Both the position numbers and the translations under genes were made by a program. From Saliphagus infecundisoli (GTDB lineage: Archaea > Halobacteriota > Halobacteria > Halobacteriales > Natrialbaceae), in contig NZ_JAIWHV010000021.1 in the NCBI RefSeq assembly GCF_020177375.1, positions 1 to 64,000 of the forward strand: DNA of 64,000 bases, given 5' to 3'. Below, piece by piece: positions 8,199 through 28,005 of this stretch (positions within the stretch are counted from its first letter, which is position 1; each line of letters opens with the position of its first letter). Under the pieces are notes generated by a model. It did not search any database. It was not told the DNA's origin and saw nothing but the letters and a program-made list of their open reading frames with translations.

Positions 8199-9232
8199 CA
8201 ACGACACCACCGTGCGGTTGAGTACGATCACATCAAAACTACTCCCCGTTTCTCCCCGCTCCTCGAGTCCCCGAACTCCCTCACTGGTCTACTCTTCACT
8301 GCACCTCACCCACCCTGTCTCACACCTCCTTTCCACGCCATTCCAAGTTCCTCTGATATCTGGTACTTCCTCCTGATTCTCCGCTGTTTCACCGCCGTGC
8401 TTCACCCCCTCTGCTGTGCGGAGAGATGCTGGTGCTCTACGCTCTTCCAGCACCACCTCTTACTCCCGGTCGCTTAGCTGACCACCCCTCTCTTTCTCAC
8501 CCCCTTCGGCCTGTATCTCTCCCATGTCTCATTCACTCCTGGCCACTGTCCTTCTCACCCATCACCCCCGCTCTCGTGTCCATACGCTCTCTGATACATC
8601 ATCATTTCTTCCCCCTTCTCACCTCCCACCGTTCACACCCCGTCGCGCATACTTCTATTTCTGCATACCCCCCTTTTCCTTTGGACGATTTTCGGGTGTG
8701 CAAAGCCGATTTAACGGATGCAGAATAGACTAGAGGCCCGTGGTGACAATCTAAGGACGTTAAATCGTGATTCACGAGTCCTTCTTCGGCCAAAACGGTC
8801 ACCACGAGCCTGAGACAGCATTTTTCGGGCAGTAACCACTTTCATCCCGGTTCGAGACAGTACTGACGTGATTCACATGTGCGGGCAATCTTCCGGATGA
8901 CACCATCAAAATCGTTTGCACCCGCTATTTTTAGCTGTTTCAGACCTCAAATCGTGATTCACGTCCCCTTATATCTTCACCTGAAATATAGAACTTAATA
9001 TATGTTGTAGTGAATATGAGTATGCGGTGGATAGGGTGATTCAATTTATTTTTCCATGAGAAGAATTATGGAAACATTAGTGAGTGAAGTTTCTCCGAAG
9101 GGGATATTAGACTGCCAGACATTCAACAAGCACTCTATAATTTGGCCTGTGATTGACACTAAAAGGCAGGATAGTTGTATAGAATAGTGAAGTGGAAATT
9201 GGTGATTTGAGTTGGGTTAGAAGTCTCCCAAA
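8199..9232. other. Non-coding tract: pyrimidine-rich, then AT-rich
   Basis: About 8230-8700 is strikingly C/T-rich on the plus strand with no plausible gene. At about 8700 the composition changes sharply to AT-rich, reaching the stop of the primase-partner gene at 9233. The AT-rich half carries repeated CGTGATTCACG palindromes. Together these look like an origin or partition/transfer region rather than simple spacer. Confidence 0.45.
8766..8963. repeat. Repeated CGTGATTCACG palindromes (iteron-like)
   Basis: Copies are at 8766-8776 and 8953-8963 (both perfect, in the longer context AAATCGTGATTCACG), 8867-8877 (last base changed), with a partial GTGATTCA at 9036-9043. Each is a palindrome with arms CGTGA/TCACG around one base. 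Spacings are 101 and 86 bp. They lie in AT-rich DNA next to a primase operon, as replication iterons or transfer-origin sites would. Confidence 0.55.
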
Positions 9233-10759
9233 TCATTCAATACTTTCCTCTACACTATCGTACATATCGTCGGGAAACGGGAGGCTGCCGTAGATCGTGT
9301 AGGGGCACTGGTCCTGCCCGATACAGTACCGTTGCATGTCGTCGTTATCGCAGTTCATGGGGAGCGGTGTTGTACCCTTGGGACCGATCCCGCGCTCTCC
9401 ACGACGGGCTTCATATTTGATCTGGTACTCAGTGATCTCGGGATCGTGCCACGGCCACCGGCTGAAGAGATCCTGGAGATCATCGATGGTTTCCTCGAGA
9501 GATGTGTCCTGATACTGGGGGAGCCACATCACCATCCGGACGATATTGAAGAGATCTTTTCGGACGGGTTTTTCTTCGTGCAGGCGTTCATCCAGGGCCG
9601 CCAGACACGGCAGTTCGAACAGGTCTTCGAGATTGTCGACTTCGACCGGGCGCGATCCGCTACTCGCGTGAGCGATCTGGTAGGTGTTGACCCGGCCGCA
9701 CCGGTCGATCGTAATCGACTGTTGTGAGTCATTATTCGCAAGGGTGTTTCCGACCGTTCGCGGACTAGTGAACTGCTGCAGTTGTGCTTCCTCGCCGTTG
9801 GTCTCGGGGTCGTAGGCTTCGAGAGCGTTGTAGAGATCTCTCGAGGTGTGGAACTCGCCGACCTGGGTGTTCGGACTGGCACTGATCGCAGATCGCAGGA
9901 GCCGAACGAGACGTTGCCCCTGGTTCCAATTCTGCCAGAGCTTGTCGTAATGGCCGCCGCGAATGGCTCGTTCGATCCGGTCGCTAATCGCTGTTTCGTT
10001 GCCTGTAAGCCAACTGCGTTCGTCCTCGCCCAGTTCGTCTTCTTGGATCGAGCGAAGGCGAGCGAACTCGGTTTCGGCGTACTCCTGGTAGTCTTCCTCG
10101 AAGTCTTCGATCGGGATGTAGAGGCTGTTGTTCGCGAGCCGTGTCCTTATTTCGCCCGCTTCCTCGGCGCTGGTTGCTTCGTCGGTTGTGCGGGTCAGAC
10201 AGGCCCGTGAGGCGGCCGCCATCGGAATTTCGATGTAGAGAGCGTCCTCCTCGGTCTCGTCGATGTCGAACCCGGACATCGTCGTGACGTTAGTACAGAC
10301 TCGGCCTGGATGTGGCCCGTCTTCGCTGGGTGGTTTCCCGTAGAGGACTTCCGCAATGTCTTGGTAGAGTGTGGGGTCGTCGTACTCTCGGATGAGTGAG
10401 ATGAGGTTGTTCGCGAACAGTTCCCGGATGTGGTGGATGACTTGGTTACGCCGAACGGGCGTATTTTCGAAGCGGGAGTGCCCCATCACGCAAATCGTCC
10501 CAACGGTTGCGACTAGGACGAGTGTCGCAGGCCGATCGACGAACGATCGCTCGAGGGTTCGGTCGCGTTGGGCCGGTTCAAACGCACCAGTCACGAACCG
10601 TTCGACATCCGAAAGCACTGTCTCGGGATCAGGTTCGCCGTCGACGAGGTAACGATCGTAGCCACGGGCGAACAGTTGGACGATCTCGCCCGTCGTGTAC
10701 TGGGTTGGGACGGCGGCGACCAGGTAGGCATCTCGTTCGGAGTTCCGTGGGTCAACCAT
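9233..10759 (-). CDS. Cys-rich partner of the plasmid primase (PriL-like candidate)
   Basis: About 508 aa from the ATG at 10759, which lies 5 bp after the primase stop; a longer frame to 10840 would overlap the primase gene. The protein is largely helical and acidic. Its C-terminus carries a conserved-looking Cys cluster, PMNCDNDDMQRYC then GQDQCPYTIYGSLP, reminiscent of the cysteines at the C-terminus of primase large subunits or zinc-bearing primase C-terminal domains. I infer that it forms a primase complex with the upstream gene. No helicase motif is seen. The exact family is not recognised. Confidence 0.6.
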   Translation of the reverse strand: MVDPRNSERDAYLVAAVPTQYTTGEIVQLFARGYDRYLVDGEPDPETVLSDVERFVTGAFEPAQRDRTLERSFVDRPATLVLVATVGTICVMGHSRFENTPVRRNQVIHHIRELFANNLISLIREYDDPTLYQDIAEVLYGKPPSEDGPHPGRVCTNVTTMSGFDIDETEEDALYIEIPMAAASRACLTRTTDEATSAEEAGEIRTRLANNSLYIPIEDFEEDYQEYAETEFARLRSIQEDELGEDERSWLTGNETAISDRIERAIRGGHYDKLWQNWNQGQRLVRLLRSAISASPNTQVGEFHTSRDLYNALEAYDPETNGEEAQLQQFTSPRTVGNTLANNDSQQSITIDRCGRVNTYQIAHASSGSRPVEVDNLEDLFELPCLAALDERLHEEKPVRKDLFNIVRMVMWLPQYQDTSLEETIDDLQDLFSRWPWHDPEITEYQIKYEARRGERGIGPKGTTPLPMNCDNDDMQRYCIGQDQCPYTIYGSLPFPDDMYDSVEESIE

Positions 10760-10764
10760 TATGA

Positions 10765-11670
10765 TCACTCGAGAAACTGCGGCCGGGCGTCTGTCCGTGG
10801 ATCGAACGCGGGACTGTCGATCGGTTGGACGATTCGACATACCTCCGTGTGCAGCGAATAGGGAACCCGGAGCAGACGACTTCGGTCGGCGGTCACGACG
10901 GGGTCAATCGGAATCTCGTAGCGCTCGATCAGGAAATCGTTGAGCACTTCGCGACTCTGTTCGTCGTAGTCGTGTTCGGAGTCGTCATCCAGAAGGTAGA
11001 CGTGAGCGCCCTGCCCGGAATAGACGACCATCGTTTGCTCGGCACTGAGCTCGTCTTTGAAGATATCGCGCGTTTCAAAGCCGTATTCGAGTGCTCGATC
11101 GAGATCCTCGAACGCGTAGGGATAGCCTGCTGGGTCAGCCGCGTGGATACCGGATTCGGCGAGTAGCATCTCGTCACGACTTCGGTCGTCTTGATGGGCA
11201 TCGTAGTGGAGTTCCTCGTCGAGTTCCCGGTCGGCTCGCGCTGTAGCGATGTCTTTTGCATCGATATCGACCGCGATCACCCACGGACGCTCCCAATTAT
11301 CCAGCCCGTAGTACACACCCGCTGACACGGGATCGGATTTCACAACGAGATCGGGATCAGCGAGCGCATACTCGCTGTTGCCGAAGGGATCGTTACGAGC
11401 GGGGGCGCGGATGAACGACAGAACGTCCTCAATCTCATCGAAGTTTTGTGAAATCTGGTCACCAGTCGAATCCGTCCGCCACGTTGCTCGTCGGATGAAA
11501 TCTCGGTCGGGCCGCCCGTCTTTGCGGATCGGATGCCGATCGCGGAAGCTGAGTCCGAACTCTTTCGGACCAGTTGCTGTGATGAACGCCGGAAGTTCGT
11601 CTGTGTACTCGGGAAACTCTTGGTCGTAATAGGTGTAAATCTCGTCTCGGGTGGCTTCTCTCCACGTCAT
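10765..11670 (-). CDS. Archaeo-eukaryotic primase catalytic subunit (PriS-like)
   Basis: The start is taken as ATG 11670 (MTWREATRDEIYTYYDQEFP), giving 301 aa; the longer frame to 11775 has an arginine-rich non-native N-terminus. The three AEP motifs are visible: WVIAVDIDAKD with the catalytic DxD at about 135-137, VVYSGQGAHVYLLDD at about 216-229 (the SGxxGxH motif), and RLLRVPYSLHTEV at about 265-277. The family makes primers for replication. It is shorter than cellular PriS (about 380 aa) and clusters with transfer genes, so it is probably the element's own primase. It overlaps the upstream membrane-protein gene by 4 bp. Confidence 0.85.
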   Translation of the reverse strand: MTWREATRDEIYTYYDQEFPEYTDELPAFITATGPKEFGLSFRDRHPIRKDGRPDRDFIRRATWRTDSTGDQISQNFDEIEDVLSFIRAPARNDPFGNSEYALADPDLVVKSDPVSAGVYYGLDNWERPWVIAVDIDAKDIATARADRELDEELHYDAHQDDRSRDEMLLAESGIHAADPAGYPYAFEDLDRALEYGFETRDIFKDELSAEQTMVVYSGQGAHVYLLDDDSEHDYDEQSREVLNDFLIERYEIPIDPVVTADRSRLLRVPYSLHTEVCRIVQPIDSPAFDPRTDARPQFLE

Positions 11671-11978
11671 GACCCCACCCCCGCGAACTGGAGGAAGTCG
11701 ATCGCGACAATTGCCGCCAAGGGCGCAACGACTCCGACCACGACACCATCTCCTCGTCGTGGAAACGGCGTCCAACTCGGAATAAGGATTGAGCCAACGA
11801 TCACTCGGAAAGTGAAGAGAACGAACAATAAGAGTGCGTAGACGACGAGCGCGACAAAGATGTGGCTGAGCCCGATTTCCATCAATCTCCCATAGGTGTA
11901 GATTGGAATGTGTTGGGAAAGATATGCTGACACTATGTCCAAGTCCGAAACAATGCTCTGGAGCAAGGTGAGTGGCAT
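11667..11978 (-). CDS. Small membrane protein between primase and VirD4 genes
   Basis: The 103-aa protein has two hydrophobic segments, about residues 36-64 (HIFVALVVYALLLFVLFTF) and about 78-98. Its ATG overlaps the stop of the upstream VirD4-like gene and its stop overlaps the primase start, so it is translationally coupled on both sides. Such placement suggests a membrane part of the transfer apparatus or a membrane tether for the DNA-processing proteins. No family is recognised. Confidence 0.65.
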   Translation of the reverse strand: MPLTLLQSIVSDLDIVSAYLSQHIPIYTYGRLMEIGLSHIFVALVVYALLLFVLFTFRVIVGSILIPSWTPFPRRGDGVVVGVVAPLAAIVAIDFLQFAGVGS

Positions 11979-14900
11979 TATTCGTTCACCACCTCGTCTA
12001 ATTTCCTGAAAGTTTGTATTGTTGTCATTCCCTCCTCTTCGAAGCCGGCGACAGACTCTTGCATACGAGACAGTTCACGAGCTGCGCGTCCAGTCACGGT
12101 CCCAGGCAATCGCTCTTCGTCAGCAAGCAGTTCGATTGTGGCTCGAGCCTCGCTGAGAGCGGGGAATGCCCAGACGGCATCTGCCTCAACAGCCGCCATC
12201 TTGTCATAGTCAGAGATAATCGCCTGAGGATTGTTCGACGCCATTTCAACTTCGCCAACCCACAGTAGTGTATCATCAGCATCGAACCCGGCGACGTCGA
12301 ATATCGTCTCTGGACCGTGCTCGAAATATCGTTCAACCCGACCCACCTCATCGACCGCGCCGATCCAGCGACTTAGTAATTCAACACCGACTTTGTGGGG
12401 TGTCTTCTCTCCGAGATCGCCAACGCCAGCTTCCGCCGTGATCGTTTCATCGAGTAGCTCCCTCCCCTCAGGAAGGACTGTGTAGTACAGTCGCCGATTC
12501 ACCCGGGCTTGTTCGAGGAGTCCGTTCTCGATCAGTACCTCAACATCGAGCCCAGGGAGGTCCTCTTCCAACTTGTCCATCCCCTCCAAGAGCGTATAGT
12601 CTGGAAGCTCCCGGTTCATCGAATCCAGAACACGTTTCAGGAACGTTGCGTCATCGCGAGAAAGCCCCTGCCTCCGAAGCGTCGCATCGTCGACCGGGCT
12701 GGTATCCGTCGCCTCTTCGTGACCACCGAAGAACGAACTCCCCACCGCCTCGTCCAGCGACTCGCCGTCGCTCTCGGTGTCTTCTCTCGAGTCGGCGTCT
12801 TCGCCGTCTTCGATCTCCTCGAACGTCGACTGTTCGGGAAGACTGTCCATCTCATCGCCTTCATCTTCGGACGCAGATTCAGCTGACTGCGTGTCCGACT
12901 CGGAATCCGGCTCTGCATTGAGTCCCGGTGTCCCCAATTGCTCTGTCTCCGACTCTGGGTCTGACCCCGGCGGCGATTCTGATCTCGATCCTGCATCTGG
13001 TGCTGGCGGCGATCCAACACTACGTTCGGTCCCAGAAGGAGAATCGCCCCACTCCGACCACTCGAGCGTGTCCTCGTGCGTGGGCACGTCCAAGCCGTAC
13101 TTGTCGTCAGTTCGCTCAACGACTTCCGGCAAGAGTTCGTCGTCGAAGCGTGCCTGCTCGGTCGCCGACAGCGGCTCGTCGCTCTCTGGGTGACCACTGA
13201 TGATCGGGAGCGAGTGCAACGTCAGCGGTGCAGGTCGATCCTCACCGAAGCGCGGACTCGCGAGCTTCGTGAACCACTCGCCTGACGCGATCCGATTGAT
13301 CCGGTTGCGAACATCCTCAACGGACAGATCGTCGTGCGTGAACGTTTTCGCAAACCGGTCCGTGATCGAGATGTCCCCGACCATTTTCGTATGCACCTCC
13401 GTCAACAGCTCTTCGTACGCGCCGTTGTTGCCATCGTCCCAAGAGTTGACCTGCTCGGGATACTGCATTACGAGTCCCATGCTCAGCCCCGATGAACGAC
13501 CCTGTGGAAGGAGCTGATCGGCGACTAACTCCGTCGCGATGAACGGCGCAGCCTCCTCGAGGATCACGTTCACCACATTGTCTGGCGACGACCGCCGTCG
13601 GTGCTGAATCGAGTGCCACAGATTACTCAACAGGACCGTGGTCAACCCACGCTGGGCGTCGAGCGTGAGGTCGCCGAGGTCGAACAGGATCGTCACGTCC
13701 TCGTTGAGGAGATCGCGGAAATCGAAATGGACGTCCTGATCGTGGAACCCGTAGAGGCTATCGCCATCGGCCTCACGACCGGGCCTGTGGCGCAACATCC
13801 AGTGGAGGTTGCGGTCCTCTTTCAACCGGTTGAGCCGGTTCTGAACCGCACTCATCGACGTATGGAACTGGTGGTCTTCCTTGTTGAACTGGCTGGCTAA
13901 CGACTCGTGGATATCGTCGTTGATCCCCGAAACGTCCGGCAGTTCTCGCGCACGCTGCATCCGCGTTGCGGCCTCGACCAGATCGTCCAGCCCGAATACG
14001 TCATCCCCGTGAACGGGGTCGAATAATGCGTGGATGAGAAACGTCAGAATCTCGTTCGCGACGAACGCCTGTTCGTGACGCTCTGCACCCATAATCATCC
14101 GCATCAACGCGTGGAAGTGGTCAGCTTTCTCCTTGACCGCGGTCTCCCGATCATGGCCGGCTTCGAGCGCGGGTCGAAGATCGAAAAACGAGACCGCTGG
14201 GAGTGTTTCGGGCTCACGGAAGTAGTAGACGTCCTCGAGTGAGCCATGCCGCTTGTAGTGGCCCATGAGGTAGTTCGTGCACATCCCGTCGCCTTTCGGC
14301 TCGAAGAGGATGTTCGGCCCTGGCGTCGTCTCGCTGAGCGAGAGGAGCATCCGATTGACGAGTTGGCTCTTCCCACCGCCGGTCGTCGCACAGACGAGCC
14401 AGTGGCGCTTCAGCTGGTCCGGCGGCACGCGAAGTGGCCCATCAATGGAGCTAGCAGGATCCTCGCCGAGCACCATTCCTGTCGTGTACTGCCGACGCTG
14501 GGCGGCTTCCAAGCCGGGGAGTGACGTCCGGCTTTCTGGATTCGCGTGGGTTTCCTTGGTGGCCTCGTCCGTGAGGTGTTCCGTGCTCGGTACGATGATC
14601 ATGTTGCAGAGTTCGTTCGGATCGAGGTGGAGGTCGGGCGTCGAGCGACCGAGTCGCTTGCCAGTCACGACGTCTCGATTCAAGACACGGTTGAAGCAGC
14701 GCCGCGAGTACGTCCGGCTACGGCGGGCGACCAACCCCTTGTCGTATAGTTTCTCGCTCTCAATGCCATAGAATCGCCCCTCCAGCGGGTCGAACACCGT
14801 GCTGATGCTTCGGAGCGACTGTTTGAGCTCGGACGTGTCACTGCTCGCCGACTTCGGGGGGACGGTTACGACCCGCAGGTTAGCCGTGAACGTATGCCCC

Positions 14901-16639
14901 AAGTCTTCTGTTTGGAGGTTGTCGATCAGATCACGATCGGCTTCGGGAATCGGCTGAGACTCCTGTGGATGGTGCTCTTGCTGGGGTTCGGCGCCATAGA
15001 TGAGGTCTTCGATAGCTTGAATGATGACATCTCCCCACGTTTCTCGGTCGCCTCTGATACGCTCAATCCGTTGATTACCACTGTGAGTCGAATCCGGTTC
15101 ACCTTCGAACGCGGCTTGGAAGACGATCGGATGATCGGTCGTTGCGAAGTGGTCGATCAGTACAGTGAGAGGGGCGTGTGAGCTATCTTTCGTGAAGTCT
15201 TCGTCATCAAGTTCCTCGTCGAAGAGCCTGATCGGCGTCATTGGATCGCCACTGCCAGTCCATCGCAGACTATACGGCTCAACGTCGTCTGGATGGGGTC
15301 GCGCGAGAACGCCCTCGCCGGTATCAACGGGGGTGTCGAGTCCGAATCTCAGTGAGCCTGGATCGCGGTTTTCTTCCTCCTCTTGTTTCCGAAGTGCGTC
15401 AAGATCAACGCTTGGGAGTTTCCCTCCAAGCGGGGTGTTGGCTCCCGACTCCGACCCCAACTCCGGCTCCGATCCCGTTCTCGATACCGTCCCCGTCCCC
15501 TGGCCGTCGCTGATACCGGCCCCATCAGCAGCGAGGGGTTGATCGCCGTGAACGCGGGTGATCGCTTCGACCTCTTCGACAGAGGTCTGAAGCGCCCCCT
15601 TTTCCAGCGCTGTCTCGAACTCCTCGTAGCTGTATTGCTCTGGAGCGACGAGTTTCTCGGCCAGATCGACGGTCACGCGTTCGATTTCGACAGTATCCGG
15701 GTAGGCGGAGTTGAGCCGATCATAGAGCGTCGAGAGGTGCTGGTCAGTCGAGTAGTAGAACTCGATTGGCGCATCCGTGCCGTTGCTGTAGATGGTGAAA
15801 TCGAACGTCAGCGGGTCAGGGCTGGCGAACGGGTTAATCCGTTGCCAGAACGATTCTTCGGTCGGGTTCAGGGCGTGCAAAGGGCGGATTTGATTGACGA
15901 TTTCTGAGGGCGCCCGTTCACCCGTCGAGGGAATGACGCGGACGTACTCCTGTTTGCGATCGAGCGGAGAGTCAGTGGACGCGTCGAGAGTGAGGACGTT
16001 CGCTTCGACCTCCTTCGGGTTGTGGATGCCTTTGCAGACCACCTTTGGGATCTCGGCTTCGACCGTCCGGAACGTGATCGTCCCGTAGGAAAGCAGTCGT
16101 CCCACGAGCGACTGGTGACGAGTGATTTCGACGACACGCTCGAGAGCGAGCTTCGCAAACTGATCCTGTCGAATCCCTCTCGTGCGCGCGTAGAGGGTGT
16201 CTGAGGTGAGAACGTATTCGGTTCGAACCGACCGTACCAGTGGAAGCAGGCCGACGACAACGCCCGTGACTCCGAGGGTGATTGGGATCGCCCCAAGCCA
16301 CCACAATGGGAGGGTGACGCTCGTCACGACCAGCCCCAGCTCGACCGGCGCGAGCCCGATGAGGGCCGGCCCCGTAGCGAATCCGGCAACGCTGGGAGTC
16401 GCGAGGGCGACTGCAAGCCCAACGAGGAGGATCGCGCCCACGTACGCACGAAGACCGCTCCGAGCCAGCGGCGTGCCAGCCCACCGAACGTCGAGGTCGG
16501 CAACGTCAGCTACTCGGTCGTCTTCTGCAACGATCCACTCGAGATTCGGAGTGTCGTCCGTCCCGTCGTGGGCAGACGCACTCGCTCGATCGTCGTCCGC
16601 TTGGTCGTCCGTTGGATTGTTGTCTATTGGATTGGTCAT
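11978..16639 (-). CDS. VirD4/TraG-like coupling ATPase with nuclease-like C-terminus
   Basis: The 1553-aa protein starts with a charged tail, then transmembrane helices at about 64-87 and 97-135 and a PH-like (bPH2) domain at about 140-210. A large linker with Ser/Gly/Asp stretches follows. The P-loop ATPase has Walker A CATTGGGKSQLV (Lys757), NVILEEAAPFI as Walker B near 1028, and a coupling-protein-like QYPEQVNSW segment. A second acidic linker (about 1150-1300) leads to a winged-helix-like part and a terminal domain (about 1435-1520) with DVAGFDADDTLLWVGEVEMA, which resembles the core of PD-(D/E)XK nucleases. VirD4 proteins pass DNA to a type IV secretion channel. The nuclease-like tail and PH domain are unusual. 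The nuclease assignment is tentative. Confidence 0.8.
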   Translation of the reverse strand: MTNPIDNNPTDDQADDDRASASAHDGTDDTPNLEWIVAEDDRVADVADLDVRWAGTPLARSGLRAYVGAILLVGLAVALATPSVAGFATGPALIGLAPVELGLVVTSVTLPLWWLGAIPITLGVTGVVVGLLPLVRSVRTEYVLTSDTLYARTRGIRQDQFAKLALERVVEITRHQSLVGRLLSYGTITFRTVEAEIPKVVCKGIHNPKEVEANVLTLDASTDSPLDRKQEYVRVIPSTGERAPSEIVNQIRPLHALNPTEESFWQRINPFASPDPLTFDFTIYSNGTDAPIEFYYSTDQHLSTLYDRLNSAYPDTVEIERVTVDLAEKLVAPEQYSYEEFETALEKGALQTSVEEVEAITRVHGDQPLAADGAGISDGQGTGTVSRTGSEPELGSESGANTPLGGKLPSVDLDALRKQEEEENRDPGSLRFGLDTPVDTGEGVLARPHPDDVEPYSLRWTGSGDPMTPIRLFDEELDDEDFTKDSSHAPLTVLIDHFATTDHPIVFQAAFEGEPDSTHSGNQRIERIRGDRETWGDVIIQAIEDLIYGAEPQQEHHPQESQPIPEADRDLIDNLQTEDLGHTFTANLRVVTVPPKSASSDTSELKQSLRSISTVFDPLEGRFYGIESEKLYDKGLVARRSRTYSRRCFNRVLNRDVVTGKRLGRSTPDLHLDPNELCNMIIVPSTEHLTDEATKETHANPESRTSLPGLEAAQRRQYTTGMVLGEDPASSIDGPLRVPPDQLKRHWLVCATTGGGKSQLVNRMLLSLSETTPGPNILFEPKGDGMCTNYLMGHYKRHGSLEDVYYFREPETLPAVSFFDLRPALEAGHDRETAVKEKADHFHALMRMIMGAERHEQAFVANEILTFLIHALFDPVHGDDVFGLDDLVEAATRMQRARELPDVSGINDDIHESLASQFNKEDHQFHTSMSAVQNRLNRLKEDRNLHWMLRHRPGREADGDSLYGFHDQDVHFDFRDLLNEDVTILFDLGDLTLDAQRGLTTVLLSNLWHSIQHRRRSSPDNVVNVILEEAAPFIATELVADQLLPQGRSSGLSMGLVMQYPEQVNSWDDGNNGAYEELLTEVHTKMVGDISITDRFAKTFTHDDLSVEDVRNRINRIASGEWFTKLASPRFGEDRPAPLTLHSLPIISGHPESDEPLSATEQARFDDELLPEVVERTDDKYGLDVPTHEDTLEWSEWGDSPSGTERSVGSPPAPDAGSRSESPPGSDPESETEQLGTPGLNAEPDSESDTQSAESASEDEGDEMDSLPEQSTFEEIEDGEDADSREDTESDGESLDEAVGSSFFGGHEEATDTSPVDDATLRRQGLSRDDATFLKRVLDSMNRELPDYTLLEGMDKLEEDLPGLDVEVLIENGLLEQARVNRRLYYTVLPEGRELLDETITAEAGVGDLGEKTPHKVGVELLSRWIGAVDEVGRVERYFEHGPETIFDVAGFDADDTLLWVGEVEMASNNPQAIISDYDKMAAVEADAVWAFPALSEARATIELLADEERLPGTVTGRAARELSRMQESVAGFEEEGMTTIQTFRKLDEVVNE

Positions 16640-16715
16640 TCAAATCTCACCTCATGAACTTGCAGACGGGTGAACACGGGTCCCACAGACCAGTCGCGCT
16701 CGAGGAACTGCTGTC

Positions 16716-19700
16716 CTAATCGTCATCATCGAGACTCACCTCCACGTCTCCAGGGGCTGATCCACCACTGTCTGGCCTGCCTGGCGCCCCATCAGCAGCA
16801 GTGTCACTGCTGGTGGTGAACTCGGTCCGAGCAGTACCGATCCATTTCTCTAAAAGCGTCGAGGAGATGAGTACCTCCTTCTCGAGAGAATTGAGATCGA
16901 CTGCGGCAAGATCCTCTACTGTTTCGATCCCCGCCTCACGGAGCTGACCGCTGTAGGACTCCCCGATACCCGTGATCGTCGTGACCTCTTGGCGATCGTC
17001 TTCTGTTCTGTCACCCGCTTTCTCGTTGCTGGACGGTTCGTGCGCGTTTTCTCGTTCGGTAGGAGCGTCTTCACTCTCATCCTCGAGTGTCTCGACGTCT
17101 GGTTCTCCGTCAGTGTTCTCGGTGCTGCGTTCCTCCTGTTCATTCCCGTTTTCGTCTCCAGTTTTGTCTTCTGTCGGCGTCTCACGCTCTTCTGTTTCCT
17201 TTGCTAACTCGTCCTCACCATCTGTCTCTGTGGTCGTCGTCCCGATCGAGTCATCACCTGCGGAGAGTGTGTCTGCAGTGCCGGCGGTACTGTCAGTAGT
17301 CTCGCCAACCGCCGACTGATCCTCCTCGTGAATTGCCGCGAGAGCAGACTCAAGTGGACCTGGCCCGTCGCTCGTGTCCGTGGTATCGTGTTCGTCGCCC
17401 CCCGCCTCAGTGCTCTCCTCGTCTTCGCTCTCGTCGGCTCGGGCGTCGGCTGACTTACTAACAGCCCCCTCGCTGTCGTCTGTCACCTGCTCATCGCTGT
17501 TCGTGTCAGAGTCAGAGATTCCGAAAGCCCGATCGAAGGCTTCGGTGTCGCTCACGTGAGCACCCATGTAGTGGTGGAACGCGCCGTGCGTCTCCGCGTC
17601 GTAACTCAACAACGCGTCCTCGAAACTCCCAGAGGACACACGAAACGTATACCATTCTTGTTCATCGCTGAATCCGACGATGCCAGTCGTATACCCAACG
17701 TCGGCCTCTCCCGTCACTGCCTCGCTGGTGACGAAATTATACTGGCTCTCGTTTAGCCCGAACGCGTCAGCGACCGACCGATCGAGGTCCTTTAACCGGA
17801 AGAACTCGGTGGTCGTACACTGCCCTCGAATTGCGTCTTTGTGGCCCGCTTCGTCATCGTTCCCGCTAATGAATTCGTCTGCACGGTGCGAGAGGAACCA
17901 CAGCCCCGCGTCGTAGTGCCGCCAGTGGCGTGCGGCCTGCTGGAGCCAGGGCAACATCTCCTCGCTGTGCAAGAGATAGTGCGCCTCGTCGATGACGAAA
18001 ATCGTCTCTTCGGGCGCGCGCTTGACCATCTCGTAGACGTTGCGCAACAGGAGTTGGAGCATCGTCGACTTGTCTGCCGTACCTAGCGCCTCGATCTGCT
18101 GCAGGTCCAGGTAGTTGACTTCGCCCTCCTCGAGGGTCACCTCGCTCTCCCCGATCAAGTGCTGGTAGCGCCCGTGCTTCTTGAAACCGACCAGCTTGCG
18201 GAGGAACTGCCGCACCTCCTGTTTGACCTCCTCCCCTTCGATATTATGGCCCGAAAGGGTGTACTCAGTGGGGTTCTCGAGCATTGCCGTCGTCTGCTCG
18301 ATAAAGTCGTCCATCGTCGGACTCTCCCGGCCGTGGGTCTCCGGCTGACCAGGGTAGATTCCCGCCTCGCGGTAGGTTTCTGTGACGATCTCGCTGACGA
18401 GATGTTTGAAATCATCCGGGTCACCGCCCTGCGCCTTGATGATCGAGAGGACCCAGCTCACGGCCGAATCGCGGGCCATCCCGAACGGATCGACGTCTTT
18501 GGTCGTCATTACCGTCTCGGGCGTTTCCTGGATCAACAGCGGGTTGATGGTCGTATTCCCGTCGACGATGATTCGGTTGCCGTTGACTGCCTCCGTGTGC
18601 TGGTAAAAGTCGCCCATCGTATCGAGCAACACGACCGTCCGATCCTCCTCACCAAGCCACCAGCGCAGGGCCTGCTTGCCTGCATGGTATGTCTTCCCCG
18701 ATCCCGAGTCCGCTAACGTGAGCTTATGCCCAGCCCCGCCTCGTTCGAACTGGCTCGCGACGATCTTCTGTCCGTGATGTTCCGAGCGGCCGTACTCCAC
18801 GCCATCTTCGTCTTGGATGTTCGACCGGGCAAATGGGAACAGGGCACCGAGCGCCCCATCACACACCATCGTCGTGTGGTCCTTCCACGAGAGTTCATTG
18901 TACTGGTCGCGAGCACCCGGAGCGCCCGATTTAAACAGTTCGTCGGCTCTCGACGACGATATCGCGGACAGTTCCGCAGGGGTGTCCTCGACCGCGTTCA
19001 ACACTGGCTCTTCAGCCTCCTCAAGTGCGCGGCGTTTCGCGACATCGAGGGTGAGCGTCTCCGGTGATTCGTACCCCTGTTCGATCTGTTCTTCGGCCAG
19101 ATCGAGCGCCCGCTTCGATCCGGCCCGGACAGTGAGATAGCCGTTGAGCTCGAACGGTCGGACTGTCGTCTGCTTGAGAAGCCGATACATCGCCTGGTAG
19201 TAGTGGACGTCCTCGGTCATCACCGACGACTCGATATCGTCGACCTCCTGCCGATCACTGATATCCGCATCAATATCCTGAATCCGTGGTTTGAGTCGCT
19301 CGATCGCGTCAGCCTTGTCGACCGGGCGTGCGCGGATGCGGAAATCGAAATCAACCCCACCGAGCGTCTGCAACGCTTTGAAGATATTTGACGGCGGGCG
19401 TTTGCGCCACCCAGTCAGCCAGTACGTCCGTGCGTACTGATCGCCGACCTCGACATAATCGTCGTGGACGTCGACAGTCCGCGGAGAAAGGGCGTCCTGC
19501 AAGGGCGAAGAGTCTACACCACGATCACCGTCCGTCTCCGAGTTGCCCACCGGATGGAACAACCCTTCTCGAATCCGAGCAAGCGTGGTCGTCTCTGATG
19601 CTGTCTCCGAGTCGTCGATCACATCCTCGGCAGGTCCAGCTTCAGCGGGTGATTGGAGCAGTTGAGTGACAACGCTGTCCGTCGGCTCTACCCCGGTCGC

Positions 19701-20936
19701 TCCGCCATCGCCCGCGACTTCAACCTCATCGATGCCTGCAACCGCATCGAGCGATAGTTGCCCATCGGCCTCTTCGCCGAGGTCTTCACCTGCGGTGGTT
19801 GCCTCCACGTTGGTTCGAGCCTGCTCATCGAGATGTGCGTCGACCGCTCCCGGTCGGTGACTCTCCTTCTTCGCCTGCTCGTGCTCGTGAGCACCCGATT
19901 CGGCCGATTTGATATCAGGCCACACCGAAAGGTTCGCTGTCTGCGACGCTGATTCGTCGCTGAACTCCCGGTGTTCGACTCCGGCCCAGTATTTCGCCAG
20001 GAGGACCGCGTGTTCAGCAGGGTCAATCAGCTCTCCCGAACAGCCGCTCACCGAGCCCGCGACGGCCTTCGCCGAGGCGACCCGATCCCGCAATCGACGC
20101 CGCATCTGCTTGCGCTGGCGAACATTCGAGGACCCACCACTCCTGAGCGAAAACAGTGAGCCATCATCCTCCTGGAATCGGTCATCGAGATCAAAGGGGT
20201 CGACCTCGACAACAATATACGAACGAAGATCGCGAGCATCCCATCCTTCGGCCTCCTCCTTCTCGAATTGGACGTAATCTCTCAACAACTCTCGGGCGAT
20301 GACCCACTCGTCACCACCGAACCGGTCACTATGGTATTGCTCACGGTACTTGTCCGTAATCTCGTCAACGTCGGTGTCAAACGTCGTCATGAAGAAATCG
20401 AACGGGCCATCCATCTCGCGGCGGATAGCGAGCGTGAGGTCTTTGACCATCTCGTTCGCCGCTGACGAGGACTGCCGTTCAGTATGCCGACCATCTACGC
20501 GCACAATCGCGACATACCGGCCATCCTCCATCTCAGCAAACCCATTCGAGAAGATGCGCTTGACACCGTGGATCGGCTCAACCGATGACTCAACGTGATC
20601 TTGTGGATACTGCCAGCGAAGGACAACTGATCGAAGGCCCGCACGGGCACGGTCGAGCCCGGTCGTTGTTTCATAATCCGTCGTCGCCGAGATCAGGATC
20701 CCGATCACTGCCAACGGAACCCCGATTGCCGCCGTCGTCCAGAACAGCCCGGATCCACTCATGAATGGCGAGCTGAAAATCCCGAAAAAGAAGACGAATC
20801 CCCCGGGTGCGCCGTAGAGAAGATGTTTGAGGGCGTATCCCTGGATTTTGATTGACGAGTCGACGTACGGAAGCGCCAACTGTGCTGGATCTCGATTCGT
20901 TTCCTCTGAGCCGCTTACCGTTGATTGGGTTGACAT
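16716..20936 (-). CDS. VirB4-like conjugation ATPase with N-terminal membrane helices and HhH tail
   Basis: The 1406-aa protein has two hydrophobic helices at about 42-62 and 64-84, as in VirB3-VirB4 fusions. A VirB4 N-terminal region follows, interrupted by an acidic insert (about 340-480). The ATPase domain has Walker A TLADSGSGKTYHAGK (Lys748) and Walker B TIFVIDEAHYLLH near 982. An acidic, Ser/Thr/Glu-rich linker (about 1120-1315) precedes a C-terminal helix-hairpin-helix DNA-binding-like module, ITGIGESYSGQLREAGIETV. VirB4 energises type IV secretion. The length is well above the usual 800 aa. Its gene lies 12 bp after the VirB6-like gene and 76 bp before the VirD4-like gene. Confidence 0.88.
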   Translation of the reverse strand: MSTQSTVSGSEETNRDPAQLALPYVDSSIKIQGYALKHLLYGAPGGFVFFFGIFSSPFMSGSGLFWTTAAIGVPLAVIGILISATTDYETTTGLDRARAGLRSVVLRWQYPQDHVESSVEPIHGVKRIFSNGFAEMEDGRYVAIVRVDGRHTERQSSSAANEMVKDLTLAIRREMDGPFDFFMTTFDTDVDEITDKYREQYHSDRFGGDEWVIARELLRDYVQFEKEEAEGWDARDLRSYIVVEVDPFDLDDRFQEDDGSLFSLRSGGSSNVRQRKQMRRRLRDRVASAKAVAGSVSGCSGELIDPAEHAVLLAKYWAGVEHREFSDESASQTANLSVWPDIKSAESGAHEHEQAKKESHRPGAVDAHLDEQARTNVEATTAGEDLGEEADGQLSLDAVAGIDEVEVAGDGGATGVEPTDSVVTQLLQSPAEAGPAEDVIDDSETASETTTLARIREGLFHPVGNSETDGDRGVDSSPLQDALSPRTVDVHDDYVEVGDQYARTYWLTGWRKRPPSNIFKALQTLGGVDFDFRIRARPVDKADAIERLKPRIQDIDADISDRQEVDDIESSVMTEDVHYYQAMYRLLKQTTVRPFELNGYLTVRAGSKRALDLAEEQIEQGYESPETLTLDVAKRRALEEAEEPVLNAVEDTPAELSAISSSRADELFKSGAPGARDQYNELSWKDHTTMVCDGALGALFPFARSNIQDEDGVEYGRSEHHGQKIVASQFERGGAGHKLTLADSGSGKTYHAGKQALRWWLGEEDRTVVLLDTMGDFYQHTEAVNGNRIIVDGNTTINPLLIQETPETVMTTKDVDPFGMARDSAVSWVLSIIKAQGGDPDDFKHLVSEIVTETYREAGIYPGQPETHGRESPTMDDFIEQTTAMLENPTEYTLSGHNIEGEEVKQEVRQFLRKLVGFKKHGRYQHLIGESEVTLEEGEVNYLDLQQIEALGTADKSTMLQLLLRNVYEMVKRAPEETIFVIDEAHYLLHSEEMLPWLQQAARHWRHYDAGLWFLSHRADEFISGNDDEAGHKDAIRGQCTTTEFFRLKDLDRSVADAFGLNESQYNFVTSEAVTGEADVGYTTGIVGFSDEQEWYTFRVSSGSFEDALLSYDAETHGAFHHYMGAHVSDTEAFDRAFGISDSDTNSDEQVTDDSEGAVSKSADARADESEDEESTEAGGDEHDTTDTSDGPGPLESALAAIHEEDQSAVGETTDSTAGTADTLSAGDDSIGTTTTETDGEDELAKETEERETPTEDKTGDENGNEQEERSTENTDGEPDVETLEDESEDAPTERENAHEPSSNEKAGDRTEDDRQEVTTITGIGESYSGQLREAGIETVEDLAAVDLNSLEKEVLISSTLLEKWIGTARTEFTTSSDTAADGAPGRPDSGGSAPGDVEVSLDDDD

Positions 20937-20948
20937 TGGGTTGGGTGG

Positions 20949-22604
20949 TTAGGAGTTCAGTATCCGATCGATGCGTTCCTTCTCCATTTCGTCGAACGTT
21001 TGGTGCTCATAATCGGCATCAATCGGGTCGACACTGTTCTGGTTCGTGTTGCTCGTCTCGACTGACTGCCCGGTGCTCCCGTCAGAGGACCCACTACGTG
21101 ACGACGAGCCCCCGCCGTCACCCGTGGTAGACGTGGGTGACCCACCGTCGCCAGAGCCACCACTATCCGTGCTGGATCCCCCACTACTCCTGCCAAACCG
21201 ATCGCGGATCCCACTGGTCCACCCGCTACCAGTAGAATATTGATCGAGGGTCGTTTGTTCGCCAGACCCGCGATCATAGAAGTCCGAGGCGATGCGTTTG
21301 ACTTCTCCCGGCGCCCGGTGGACTGTTCGATCCAACGCTTTTTCCGTTGGTTCCCTTCCCATCTTGATCGATGCGGCGAGCTGGGCCTTCTGAAGGAACT
21401 TCCACGGAAGATATGCGAGTGCGAAACCGACCCCGAACGCGATTAACACGATCGAGCCGGCAGTTCCCGCGACCGATTCGCCCAGCGGGAGGAATATGAG
21501 GAATCGTAAGATGATCGACTGGATGATCGAGAGAGCCAGAAGACCCCCAAAGATGAACAACCCAAAGCTGCCGTAAGCACGAGCTTGACCGTGAGACGCC
21601 CATGCAGCCCACATCAAAGGCCAAAACAGCCCCACGACATACGTCAGAAAGTTCATTGCGATGATCGCGACTAAGGCTGCGATGACGATGATCCCCTTGA
21701 AGAATACTAAGACAGCCAATACAATCACGCCAAGCCCGAATCGAACCGCGCCGTCGACGCTGATGAACTGCTCACCATCGGGATAGATTTCTTGAGCTAA
21801 TTCGGCAAATAAATGCAGTAAACCGGGGAAGAACACGAACGTCCCAAATATCATCAGCCCTGCAAACCCGACCCGCTTCCACGATCGCCGTCTCTTTTCG
21901 GCGCTATCATAAGAAAACGAAATGCCGAACTGCGTGATGAGCCACATGATACCGAGGACAAGCGGCCACGACATCACGGAATAAACGGTCTGCCAGAACC
22001 CACTCTCAGGTTCGGTCCAAGTCGAGGGATCCGTCGCCTCACCAGGTGCGGGAACTTGGATAGCATACGCGTGCAACGCGTTGATAAGCGCAATCAACTC
22101 GTTGAGTGCTGCCGTGGTGAAATACACCGCCACAGAGTGAGCCCACTCGCCTGGCGAATGTACTGCATCGGCTCCGCCCGTTATTGTTTCCTCTGCGGCT
22201 TTCGCCGTGTCGTAAATGTTACCGAGTCTTTCAGCCCCCGGAACATGTTCTTCGGCAACATCTCTTCCCCGATCCAGGACCGCGTTTCGAGCATTTTTGG
22301 CATCCTCTATCGGGGAAAAGCCACTCCCGCCATCATCCACCTCAGATGCATTCTCATTCGAGCTATTTTCTTCCTCACCAGTGTCTTCGACCACCACGTC
22401 TTCAGAATCCCCGCCACCATAGTCGATTGAGATGTTCGAGCTGCCATCGGGCTCCGCACCGAATCCATCATCCTCCGATTCATTACTCTCGTTCTCTTGA
22501 GCCTCGGCGACACTCACACCACCAAGTAATGGGATACTCAGCAGTCCGAGACCCAAAACCGCGATCAGTATCCACCGTGTATCGATTGGTAGTTGGGATC
22601 CCAT
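20949..22604 (-). CDS. VirB6/TrbL-like polytopic membrane protein
   Basis: The 551-aa protein has an N-terminal signal peptide (WILIAVLGLGLLSIPLLGG, cleavage near AEAQ) and an acidic exterior region to about residue 105. About six membrane helices lie between residues 165 and 410. A hydrophilic Ser/Gly-rich tail (about 455-515) ends in a charged helix. Multi-pass proteins of this layout sit next to VirB4 as channel proteins. Assignment is by topology and position, not by motif. The 9-bp gap to the upstream gene and 12-bp gap to virB4 indicate one operon. Confidence 0.7.
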   Translation of the reverse strand: MGSQLPIDTRWILIAVLGLGLLSIPLLGGVSVAEAQENESNESEDDGFGAEPDGSSNISIDYGGGDSEDVVVEDTGEEENSSNENASEVDDGGSGFSPIEDAKNARNAVLDRGRDVAEEHVPGAERLGNIYDTAKAAEETITGGADAVHSPGEWAHSVAVYFTTAALNELIALINALHAYAIQVPAPGEATDPSTWTEPESGFWQTVYSVMSWPLVLGIMWLITQFGISFSYDSAEKRRRSWKRVGFAGLMIFGTFVFFPGLLHLFAELAQEIYPDGEQFISVDGAVRFGLGVIVLAVLVFFKGIIVIAALVAIIAMNFLTYVVGLFWPLMWAAWASHGQARAYGSFGLFIFGGLLALSIIQSIILRFLIFLPLGESVAGTAGSIVLIAFGVGFALAYLPWKFLQKAQLAASIKMGREPTEKALDRTVHRAPGEVKRIASDFYDRGSGEQTTLDQYSTGSGWTSGIRDRFGRSSGGSSTDSGGSGDGGSPTSTTGDGGGSSSRSGSSDGSTGQSVETSNTNQNSVDPIDADYEHQTFDEMEKERIDRILNS

Positions 22605-22613
22605 GCCTGGGAA

Positions 22614-23060
22614 TCAGAACACGAATGGCATGGTAACCAGTATCTCGCCACCCTCGAGGCAGCTGTCGAGGTTAACACCGACATAATCAAGCACTGCGCC
22701 TGCAGATCCGAGGAATAAGCCCCCGACGAGCGTAATTACGCCATTGACAACCGTGTTGCGCTCGCCTCGGCGACCACTGCCACGGCCAGTTCCCAAGAAG
22801 CCGATCGCAATTTGAGCCAACCCGATCAGGATGAGGACCAACGTCAGCAACCCAAAGAAGAGGAATATGGCCTGTCCGAGCGCGCCCGAACAAGCAACAG
22901 TACTAGCTTCCTCGAGCGCTGACTGGGCAATGACTGGCTGGATCAAGAGCACCGCCGCTGCGACGAATACTGTGATCTGAGCTATTGCGACACTCTGGCC
23001 AACCAGGACACGTTTCGTTGCCTGGGTTAATCTCCCATGGCAATTGTCATCCGGTCCCAT
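22614..23060 (-). CDS. Pilin-like (VirB2/TrbC-type) small membrane protein
   Basis: The 148-aa protein has a hydrophobic signal-like helix (about 23-45, ending PVIAQSALEEA). A Cys-containing loop and two more membrane helices separated by a short basic GTGRGSGRRGERN loop follow. This signal + helix + basic loop + helix plan is that of VirB2-type pilins. It is the first gene of the long minus-strand string and lies upstream of the VirB6-like gene. The two cysteines could form a disulphide outside the cell. Assignment by topology and context only. Confidence 0.6.
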   Translation of the reverse strand: MGPDDNCHGRLTQATKRVLVGQSVAIAQITVFVAAAVLLIQPVIAQSALEEASTVACSGALGQAIFLFFGLLTLVLILIGLAQIAIGFLGTGRGSGRRGERNTVVNGVITLVGGLFLGSAGAVLDYVGVNLDSCLEGGEILVTMPFVF

Positions 23061-23304: not shown

Positions 23305-24717
23305 GTGAAACCCTCCACACTGGCTCGTCGAAAAGTCTTAGCCGGAATCGGGGCTACCACAGGGGCAGCAATCCTCGCAGGCTGTGGCGACCAAATGCAA
23401 CAGCGAAGACAACGGTATAGCACAATGGAGGGCGGAGACGTCTCACCTGTAATCTCTCCCGAGGACTATGCACAGCAGTTTTCCGAAGTTGTGAATCTCG
23501 TTGGCGATTTCGGTGCGGACCCATCGGGCGAACAGCCGATCGATGCCCCTCTCAGACAAGCCTGGGATAACGACCGGCTGATCGTACTCCCGGAAGGCGA
23601 ATACAAGATGAATCGGCCGTTCCGACGGACGAGGACCTCGAACGTTGGGTTAATCGGCCAGAACGCGACTATCCGGCATGGTGAGGTCAAAGCAATCAAT
23701 AGACACACTGTCGATCGGGGCGAGTATACCGGCTCTACGATGATGTTCCGTATCGGGACCCCAACGAGCCCACATGGCGATCTCGTCTTCGGCGGCCTCA
23801 TTTTCGACTGGGGATGGCATAAGAACGCAGGAATGCAGGGCCTCAATGCGTTCATCGATGGACAGGCTGAGATCCGGAATATCGTCTTTCAGGGGACTCA
23901 TTCGCTTGGGTCGTTCGCCAATTTGCGCGTCGCGAGCGCCACGCCCGACTCGGTGGCTCTCGTTGACTCGGTCGATATGCGCGGGGGCGGGCTCCACTAC
24001 ATCGATACGATCAACACGCGAGAAGAGCGCCGATTCGATGAGGGACCTGAGCATCCCGATTTCGGGCAAAGCTGGGGCTCGACGGGGTTTACGGGCCATC
24101 CCGATCAACAGGGGACGACCGTGATCCGCAACATGGTCTGTGGCCCCTGGCCCGATAACACGGTCTATCCTCGAGGGGGCACCGGCCGAAAGATCGTCTC
24201 GGGGTGTACCGTCTGGAACGGCGGTGGGTCCCAAATCCGGAACAATGGAGGCGATGATTGGGAACCCGTCGAATGGCTGGATGGAACCGACAACAAAGAG
24301 GAAGCCCTCAACGGGCCGTATCCAGGCTCCGTGATCGAGAACTGCCACGTCCTCATCGATGAGAAGCCGGAGGGTGTCTACATCAACCCGCGTGGAATCC
24401 TACTTCAGGATGGTCCGCAACTCGTGCGCAACTGTGAAGTCGAGATCTCGTATGCCGAGGGCGGCGGGGCTGGAGGGACGTACGGCTTCGGGACGCGCGG
24501 CGAAGGCGGATCGGCACCGGCCGGCCCAGCCGTCGTCGAGAACTCAACAATTACGCTCCACGAAAACACGGATGCGATCTACGTCTCGCCGTACACAAAC
24601 TCCCTCGAGGTCCACGATATCGAGATCAACACTGTCGGCTGGGAGGCTGGCCTTCGTCGCCTCGTTGGTGGCGTGGGCACCGATAATCTTCAAAACGTTA
24701 TCGTCAACTCAGACTGA
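23305..24717 (+). CDS. Tat-exported lipoprotein with right-handed beta-helix
   Basis: The 470-aa protein starts at a GTG (MKPSTLARRKVLAGIGATTG) preceded by GAGGAG. RRKVLAG is a Tat motif and LAGC gives a lipid-anchored Cys27. From about residue 60 the sequence follows a pectate-lyase-like beta-helix plan: NLVGDFGADPSGEQPID, DNDRLIVLPEGEYKM, then repeated short strand-turn units (VIENCHVLI, LVRNCEVEIS, VVENSTITLH, LEVHDIEINT). Such folds act as polysaccharide lyases or hydrolases or as phage/surface spikes. Catalytic residues are not evident. The gene is divergent from the transfer operon, so a surface role in mating or attachment is possible. Confidence 0.75.
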   Translation: MKPSTLARRKVLAGIGATTGAAILAGCGDQMQQRRQRYSTMEGGDVSPVISPEDYAQQFSEVVNLVGDFGADPSGEQPIDAPLRQAWDNDRLIVLPEGEYKMNRPFRRTRTSNVGLIGQNATIRHGEVKAINRHTVDRGEYTGSTMMFRIGTPTSPHGDLVFGGLIFDWGWHKNAGMQGLNAFIDGQAEIRNIVFQGTHSLGSFANLRVASATPDSVALVDSVDMRGGGLHYIDTINTREERRFDEGPEHPDFGQSWGSTGFTGHPDQQGTTVIRNMVCGPWPDNTVYPRGGTGRKIVSGCTVWNGGGSQIRNNGGDDWEPVEWLDGTDNKEEALNGPYPGSVIENCHVLIDEKPEGVYINPRGILLQDGPQLVRNCEVEISYAEGGGAGGTYGFGTRGEGGSAPAGPAVVENSTITLHENTDAIYVSPYTNSLEVHDIEINTVGWEAGLRRLVGGVGTDNLQNVIVNSD

Positions 24718-24747
24718 CATCCTTTCTGGAAAGACGGTCTTCATGTG

Positions 24748-25722
24748 TTAGCGAAGAGTAACTGACGCAAGGATTTCTTCTGCCAACTCAGCGTACTCCT
24801 CGTCGTATTCTGGTCGCGAAACCTGAACGGAAGTCAAGTACTCGTTTCCATGCTCATTTACCAAGAGTTCGTGAGCGAATAGTGGATTCTCTGGGCTCTC
24901 AGTCACCTCGATGACGAACCGATGGCCGTCCTCACCGCTCGTGAGTGTCATCGGCTCGTCTTCATGGATTTCAAAACCTGGGTTGGGCTCGAAATTCTGT
25001 CGGTAGTTGGTGACATCCCCCTCAAGATCGAGAGAGGTTTCCCTGATGTCAATCCAGAGCCATGCAGTTTCGTTGGAGTTAGCGATTATAACCGGGATAC
25101 TCTCGTCCGTCTCGACCATCTCCCAATCAGCAGGGTAGTCAACTTGATAGGACAACGCCTCGATGATGATCTGCTCAAACTCCCTCTCTTCCTCAGACTC
25201 GTTTTGATTGCTTTCGGAATCGTTCTCGTCGTCACTTGACTCGGTGCTGCTGTTGTCGGTGCTGTCGTTGTCCAGATTTTCCTGGGACTCCTCAGCTGTA
25301 TCGTTCTCCTCCTCGGTATCTGTCTCATTGTCGTCCGGTTCGTTGTCTAAATCTGCTTGATCGCCCTCGGAGTCGTTCTCATCATCGTCATCCGATTCGT
25401 CGTCGTTGGGTTCTTCCTCGAGTATCGAGTCGTCATTATCGTCAGATTCACTTCCCTCATCGTCGTCCGATCCAGTATCGTTGCTTTGGTTGTCGTCTGG
25501 TGACTCGGTGTCGGTGATTTCCTTTCTTTCACCATCTGGTTGGGTCGATGTGTTTTCTGACCCATTGCCGTCTGTCTCGTTCTCCGGCTCCCCAGCCTCC
25601 TCATCGTCATCTCCAAGTCCGAGGCATCCCACCGTTCCACTCAAGATTGTGAGGGACCCAACTCCCAAGATCCAATTACGGCGCGTTGTGGTTTCTGGAT
25701 CTGTCAAGTGTCCTCCGTCCAT
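24748..25722 (-). CDS. Acidic lipoprotein with PsbP/DUF1795-like C-terminal domain
   Basis: TTRRNWILGVGSLTILSG followed by TVGC marks a Tat-type lipoprotein signal with Cys33. Residues about 37-180 are an extreme low-complexity tract of D, E, S, N and T, a hydrophilic stalk. The last 140 residues are a folded domain (ALSYQVDYPADWEMVETD ... NYRQNFEPNPGFEIHEDEPM ... EEILASVTLR) with the pattern of PsbP-like or DUF1795 lipoproteins. It probably stands off the membrane through the surface layer. It lies 2 bp downstream of the next membrane-protein gene and should share its transcript. Confidence 0.7.
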   Translation of the reverse strand: MDGGHLTDPETTTRRNWILGVGSLTILSGTVGCLGLGDDDEEAGEPENETDGNGSENTSTQPDGERKEITDTESPDDNQSNDTGSDDDEGSESDDNDDSILEEEPNDDESDDDDENDSEGDQADLDNEPDDNETDTEEENDTAEESQENLDNDSTDNSSTESSDDENDSESNQNESEEEREFEQIIIEALSYQVDYPADWEMVETDESIPVIIANSNETAWLWIDIRETSLDLEGDVTNYRQNFEPNPGFEIHEDEPMTLTSGEDGHRFVIEVTESPENPLFAHELLVNEHGNEYLTSVQVSRPEYDEEYAELAEEILASVTLR

Positions 25723-27605: not shown

Positions 27606-27983
27606 ATGGCCGAAGACAAACCCGAATCGCCTGATCTCCCAAAAACTCTCCTCGAGCCTCTCGAACGGCAGTCACCCACTCGCCTCGAAGAAGTGAGTGC
27701 GTACGCTCGTGAACTCGCCCGGTGGAAGCGTGAACGCGAACAAGAACTCACCGACGCTCAAGAACAGGACTCAATCAGCGACGACGAACAGGCCAAACTC
27801 GAAGCACGCGGAATTTCGACCGATCCGGCCGACTACGACGACGTCACTGCTAGTCGAGCCTATATTACGATTAAGGAAACGAAACCTGGCTATAAGTATT
27901 ATTACTGGCAATGGAGATCTGGAGAGGACTCCTGGAAGAACCAATACATCGCCCCCGTCGACCCAAAGGACACGACCAGCTGA
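27606..27983 (+). CDS. Small DUF6788-like protein, first gene of the chaperone operon
   Basis: The 125-aa protein has an N-terminal helical half (LERQSPTRLEEVSAYAREL ...) and a short C-terminal module, AYITIKETKPGYKYYYWQW then SWKNQYIAPVDP. That module resembles the compact beta motif of DUF6788-type proteins common in haloarchaea and proposed to bind nucleic acid. The gene begins 10 bp after the dyad and is followed after 22 bp by the Hsp70 gene. It may be the regulator of the operon. Function is not established. Confidence 0.6.
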   Translation: MAEDKPESPDLPKTLLEPLERQSPTRLEEVSAYARELARWKREREQELTDAQEQDSISDDEQAKLEARGISTDPADYDDVTASRAYITIKETKPGYKYYYWQWRSGEDSWKNQYIAPVDPKDTTS

Positions 27984-28005
27984 CACCCCCCTCACCACTA
28001 AACTC

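Follow-up and report, generated by a model that had tools for sequence, protein, structure and literature searches.

We propose that the operon described here encodes a plasmid transfer module of haloarchaea, in which a minimal type IV channel would be combined with a coupling ATPase bearing its own DNA-processing end and with a pair of priming proteins; we put the probability of this reading at roughly 0.45. The operon lies in a 64-kb stretch of DNA (the window), which represents nearly the whole of its contig, C13, since the latter measures only 64,923 bp in a host genome of 4.53 Mb. Its occurrence is not due to chance: the same genome contains three further copies (on contigs C16, C5 and C30, with 73-84% identity), four in total, and relatives of the coupling ATPase are found on 145 sequenced plasmids, all of which are typed by MOB-suite as non-mobilizable. 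The predicted module is widespread in haloarchaea.

Genes of the operon

The first-pass annotation described a co-directional string of reading frames for pilin-like, VirB6-like, VirB4 and VirD4-like proteins, a small membrane protein and primases, and all of these frames were confirmed on the minus strand:

22614..23060, minus strand: pilin-like protein (VirB2 position), 148 aa, three hydrophobic segments by hydropathy; putative role
20949..22604, minus strand: VirB6-like polytopic membrane protein, 551 aa, six or more hydrophobic segments by topology
16716..20936, minus strand: VirB4 ATPase, 1406 aa, with a VirB3/PrgI-like N-terminal part (NCBIfam conjugal VirB4 models, E 1e-20)
11978..16639, minus strand: VirD4-like coupling ATPase, 1553 aa (profiles, fold, conservation)
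11667..11978, minus strand: small membrane protein, 103 aa, 2 TM by hydropathy; also present in the C16 copy
10765..11775, minus strand: PriS-like primase (TIGR00335, E 4e-11)
9233..10840, minus strand: primase-associated protein (NCBIfam NF038197, E 4e-212)

The first four frames are separated by intergenic gaps of 9-76 bases, and the operon continues downstream of them with the membrane ORF, the primase and the primase-associated gene, where it ends at 9233. The primase genes claimed for the string are real ones (PriS-like and NF038197), but they lie outside the interval 11978-23060 to which they had been assigned.

The VirB4 assignment is firm at the level of sequence, with a Walker A motif (GSGKT) at 745 and IDEAH at 982 accompanying the profile matches; a C-terminal helix-hairpin-helix (HHH_5, E 2.5e-5) stays under the Pfam cut-off. 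The N-terminal 480 aa match a separate 374-aa Haloferax gene (E 5e-10), that is, VirB3 and VirB4 are fused in the window, and on some related plasmids the N-terminal part is a VirB3/PrgI-like membrane gene of its own. For the 148-aa and 551-aa proteins, hydropathy and operon position suggest the pilin-like and VirB6-like labels, respectively. The former displays a weak profile similarity (hhalign E 0.005, prob 7%) to a 138-aa Haloferax protein at the same operon position, and the gene at the VirB6 position of the C5 copy matches a polytopic 354-aa Haloferax protein (E 2e-9). The PriS-like primase probably starts at the ATG at 11670, because DNA conservation among the copies begins at 11670-11672. 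Its neighbor, the primase-associated protein, is weakly PriL-like (PriL, E 0.027) and has C-terminal cysteines; we considered it as a hidden relaxase and dropped this idea, as the only profiles that it matches are those of its own family and, weakly, that of PriL.

Several other genes surround the operon. Next to it lie a frame whose product has a lipobox-like N-terminus (23305-24717) and a second, lipoprotein-like one (24748-25722); conservation of the DNA at 23305-25722 extends to the C16 and C30 copies, which are flanked by similar sequence (72-84%). The operon strand further encodes a TFIIB-like protein (2510-3625) and an SSB-like protein with an OB fold (5325-6185); other transfer elements of archaea are likewise accompanied by TFIIB genes (PMC6563490). 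Further away lie a DnaK (HSP70) and DnaJ-like pair (27697-31206) and a cargo region (31699-63321) flanked by DDE transposases, in which genes for the degradation of polysaccharides (GH2, GH127, arabinofuranosidases) are accompanied by an oligopeptide-type ABC transporter and an IclR regulator.

The C-terminal domain of the coupling ATPase

The VirD4-like protein, recognized as such already in the first-pass annotation, is a HerA/TraD-type ATPase, with Pfam DUF87 over the cut-off and NCBIfam SXT_TraD at E 9e-4; a relative within the family also scores over the cut-off of Pfam T4SS-DNA_transf. Its predicted architecture consists of a TM part with a bPH domain, a P-loop ATPase at about residues 640-1180, and a winged helix followed by a PD-(D/E)xK nuclease at about residues 1318-1553. 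The AlphaFold2 model of the ATPase core reached a pLDDT of 44 and was therefore left unused. The C-terminal region was modeled separately, based on 21 homologues:

11981..12784, minus strand: winged helix and PD-(D/E)xK-like nuclease region, residues 1286-1553 (AlphaFold2, PDB Foldseek, conservation)

This model is of moderate quality (mean pLDDT 64, core mostly 70-90) and predicts a winged helix and then an a-b-b-b-a-b core, in which H1415 falls in the first helix and D1448 in the second strand, while the third strand ends with E1463 and E1465. Two features of PD-(D/E)xK enzymes, the core fold and a pair of acidic residues on strands 2 and 3 (D1448 and E1463), are present in it. When the nuclease half was compared with the PDB by Foldseek, DrdV (prob 0.98), 3dnx (0.96), EndoMS/NucS (0.8), the Holliday-junction resolvase Hjc (0.69) and SfsA were retrieved, all of them established PD-(D/E)xK folds; the remaining half matched winged-helix proteins, and the model as a whole gave no PDB match below 0.001. 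H1415, D1448 and E1463 are invariant in all 71 aligned relatives that cover the region (72 sequences), 17 distant ones included, and E1465, which occupies the place of the classical PD-(D/E)xK lysine, is kept in 68 of the 71. Fold prediction and conservation together support a predicted PD-(D/E)xK nuclease behind a winged helix, in line with the nuclease-like C-terminus annotated at first pass and at odds with a fold unrelated to nucleases, which had been named there as the contrary outcome.

Such a nuclease could also resect or trim DNA ends, or act on incoming DNA, in the manner proposed for HerA-NurA or for Thermus TdtA and its NurA-like nuclease, rather than place a site-specific initiation nick. 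This is consistent with the similarity of the coupling ATPase to HerA and with the presence of EndoMS/NucS and Hjc among the nearest folds, and it has precedents: HerA-NurA has been proposed to generate ssDNA for archaeal transfer (PMC9905601), and efficient Thermus transjugation requires a NurA homologue (PMC5365140). The Thermus TdtA-NurA element resembles our unit in pairing a HerA/FtsK-type pump with a nuclease and in having no relaxase; it differs in that its NurA-type nuclease is separate, a VirB4 channel is absent and competence of the recipient is required. The domain described here, in contrast, is fused to the pump, NurA structures are absent among the best 50 PDB fold matches of the C-terminal model, and the winged helix together with a plasmid-specific repeat element (see below) suggests site specificity, for which reasons we regard end trimming as unlikely.

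Relaxase profiles and the non-coding element

The host genome in full, together with nine complete operon-bearing plasmids, was scanned with six Pfam relaxase models (PF03432, PF08751, PF03389, PF01076, PF02486 and PF13814, for MOBP, F, Q, V, T and C). None exceeded the cut-off on contig C13, in agreement with the first-pass claim that no relaxase is visible in the window. A relaxase just outside the window in the same conserved unit, which had been named as evidence to the contrary, was likewise not found, for none of the six profiles, HUH models included, had a match above the cut-off on the nine plasmids. In the host genome there is a single match, a MOBP fragment that terminates contig C45 (L109; 10,238 bp):

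C45, 1-1462 and 9402-10238: TrwB-like coupling protein and MOBP relaxase fragment, the latter cut off by the contig end

As this fragment resides in the same genome, a relaxase acting in trans is possible; alternatively, a relaxase might still be unrecognised, and the C-terminal domain would then be a DNA-binding or structural tail. The MOBP fragment with its TrwB-like partner would fit this explanation, as would the standalone relatives of the winged helix-nuclease in other genomes and the prevalence of MOBC over other relaxase classes in a plasmidome dominated by haloarchaea (PMC8563766). C45, however, is a separate, canonical mobilisation unit with its own coupling protein, the nine complete operon plasmids are free of matches to the six profiles, and the catalytic-type residues of the domain are invariant rather than decayed. 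Taken together, this makes a relaxase in trans or a structural tail quite improbable.

If the fused nuclease processes DNA, it may do so at a conserved stretch behind the primase-associated gene, whose stop is at 9233:

8583..8970, minus strand: conserved non-coding element, candidate oriT or origin
8767..8962, minus strand: GTGAATCAC three times (8954-8962, 8868-8876, 8767-8775), upstream of the core
8660..8704, minus strand: inverted repeat enclosing the core (arms 8694-8704 and 8660-8670), covariation across 7 sequences
8677..8691, minus strand: core AAATCGTCCAAAGGA

Part of this stretch is conserved among the operon copies, though apparently non-coding, and the element follows the primase-associated gene in all four copies of the host genome. 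With up to one mismatch, the core occurs 4 times in the 4.53-Mb genome, exactly once per operon copy, as against 0 in the backward control and 0 expected in window shuffles. The element is matched by 12 plasmids in blastn, and in the 8 of these for which coupling-gene coordinates are listed it lies about 2.7-3 kb downstream of the coupling gene, just behind the primase genes. The repeats upstream of the core are common within one plasmid and differ in sequence between plasmids (GTGAATCAC three times here, CGTCGCGCG three times on C30). The arms of the inverted repeat are paired in 75% of cells over 7 sequences, against a background of 39%, with compensatory changes, and re-dealt arms reach the observed pairing in 0.25% of trials (0.0025); since the register was picked by scanning, this covariation is suggestive rather than proof, and in four Natrinema-type sequences the inverted repeat does not form. 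Two further candidates were rejected: the CGTGANTCACG palindrome is weak as a stand-alone signal (equalled in 2 of 100 window shuffles) and was counted within the repeat set, and an upstream hairpin around CCTTAGA is strong in a few sequences only. The element could be an oriT or, equally, a replication origin.

These observations can be accommodated in the following mechanism. The pilin-like, VirB6-like and VirB3/VirB4 proteins would form a minimal type IV secretion channel, through which the unit would transfer DNA. The C-terminal domain would act on the non-coding element behind the primase genes: its winged helix would recognize the plasmid-specific repeats, and its PD-(D/E)xK nuclease would cut or nick at or near the core; the substrate would presumably be single-stranded. 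The ATPase would then pump DNA out via the VirB6/VirB4/pilin channel, and the PriS-like primase and its partner would prime or make the complementary strand. That the coupling protein is the transfer-initiating nickase replacing the relaxase, with the element as its oriT and with winged helix and repeats co-evolving for plasmid specificity, is a narrower proposal that we put forward only tentatively.

Distribution of the module and its relation to known systems

A search of 394 genomes of the class located the winged helix-nuclease domain in 180, and all of its matches in a 120-genome sample of the phylum fall inside the window's own order. The synteny comparison of haloarchaeal plasmids suggested at first pass revealed that most of the loci examined keep the order VirB4, coupling ATPase with its C-terminal domain, primase and primase-associated protein. 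We call operons like that of the window, in which the ATPase ends in the winged helix-nuclease, the PriS-like primase comes next and the primase-associated protein last, type A. Three operons, on pCBA1229, pNG600 and a Halomontanus plasmid, were designated type B:

L010:2904-18081, type B operon
L011:4956-21378, type B operon
L012:11995-17901, type B operon

Their ATPases belong to the same family and have a C-terminus resembling primase-C/Pox_D5; the next gene on pCBA1229 and the Halomontanus plasmid encodes an NrS-1 polymerase HBD domain, and exodeoxyribonuclease VII genes lie upstream of the operon in pCBA1229 and pNG600. It follows from this comparison that these coupling proteins come with a priming system, and that C-terminus and primase type tend to switch jointly. 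It also follows that the nuclease is not universal to the transfer system, and these operons, whose ATPase lacks the domain, together with the MOBP fragment elsewhere in the host, speak against the proposed mechanism. The pairing of coupling protein and primase is not absolute either, given one chromosomal nuclease-type copy (L094) with an NrS-1 HBD gene nearby instead and another (L086) between metabolic genes. Standalone winged helix-nuclease relatives of about 292 aa (L081-L084, L091), none of which has a coupling protein encoded in the surrounding 5 kb or so, might act in trans or represent mobilisable forms. Neither the coupling protein nor pAM373 TraX had relatives in scans of viral contigs.

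It is conceivable that the primase pair and the element constitute a replication module that merely neighbors the transfer genes, with the nuclease serving transfer without that site. Primases of the archaeo-eukaryotic type are typically found among the replication proteins of mobile elements (PMC5862659), and the repeats and inverted repeat would suit an origin too. Yet the primase pair goes with the type A coupling protein on plasmids of diverse kinds, and in type B both the C-terminus and the primase type are different; we therefore consider this explanation somewhat unlikely. An anti-phage or DNA-uptake device in place of conjugation would be hinted at by a weak PADLOC similarity to mad8/HerA and by the archaeal Ced/Ted relatives that import DNA (PMC9905601). 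The PADLOC matches, however, reflect generic ATPase similarity only, for which reason a defense identity was set aside, and the unit resides on plasmids with primase genes, unlike a chromosomal uptake system, so that we judge such a role highly improbable.

Returning to the transfer module, its layout resembles that of the MOBC relaxases. These nickases combine a winged helix with a PD-(D/E)xK domain, and a covalent intermediate has not been seen for them; one of them, pAD1 TraX, binds direct repeats distant from nic (PMC12857230). With MOBC proteins (pAD1 TraX, pAM373, pGIAK1; PF13814, Replic_Relax) the C-terminal region shares this domain pair and an H/D/ExE pattern, and their partner coupling proteins are HerA-like or of the TraM-recognition type. 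In six Gram-positive plasmids the MOBC gene directly precedes the coupling-protein gene, a few bases apart or overlapping, so that the same two functions as in the window protein are present there, but unfused; in pAM373 and a Listeria plasmid the two genes do not adjoin, and the CloDF13 sequence record has no MobC annotated. In contrast to MOBC, the window nuclease is fused to the coupling protein and has no Pfam match, PF13814 included. An initial hhalign value of 1e-4 was traced to the winged helix alone once the domain was split (winged helix against winged helix, E 1e-5, in a fold that is common generally), whereas the nuclease core gave E 0.19, within the range of column-shuffled decoys, which reach 0.07. 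For this reason we do not claim MOBC membership; the window protein resembles a MOBC/coupling-protein pair in layout.

Archaeal elements with VirB4 and VirD4 and no relaxase are well known, and unrecognised relaxases have been suspected in them (PMC3158045, PMC9905601, PMC6563490). The Sulfolobus pNOB8 family, thaumarchaeal ICEs and Thermococcus pT33-3 likewise combine VirB4 and VirD4 with polytopic membrane proteins and no recognised relaxase; to this the window unit adds the winged helix-nuclease on the coupling protein, the primase genes and the non-coding element, an arrangement not reported for such elements in the literature searched. Transfer nuclease and priming are tied together also in the RSF1010-type MobA, an HUH relaxase with a fused primase, whereas our unit has no HUH profile match, its PriS-like primase is a separate gene and the nuclease sits on the pump.

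Relaxase-less archaeal transfer being already known, what is new is the nuclease fusion, the primase linkage and the cis-element; the literature searched, whose coverage was incomplete, holds no description of a coupling protein-PD-(D/E)xK fusion in such plasmids or of the element. From 2011 at the latest (PMC3158045), the question has been raised of why archaeal conjugation seems to miss a relaxase, and papers of 2023 and 2025 (PMC9905601, PMC12857230) continue to describe it as open. A predicted nuclease joined to the pump, primer genes and a conserved site may together represent a relaxase-free way to start transfer. The fused nuclease and its candidate cis-site would offer a directly testable answer for many plasmids now typed as non-mobilizable, the hosts of which include the genetically tractable Haloferax and Halobacterium.
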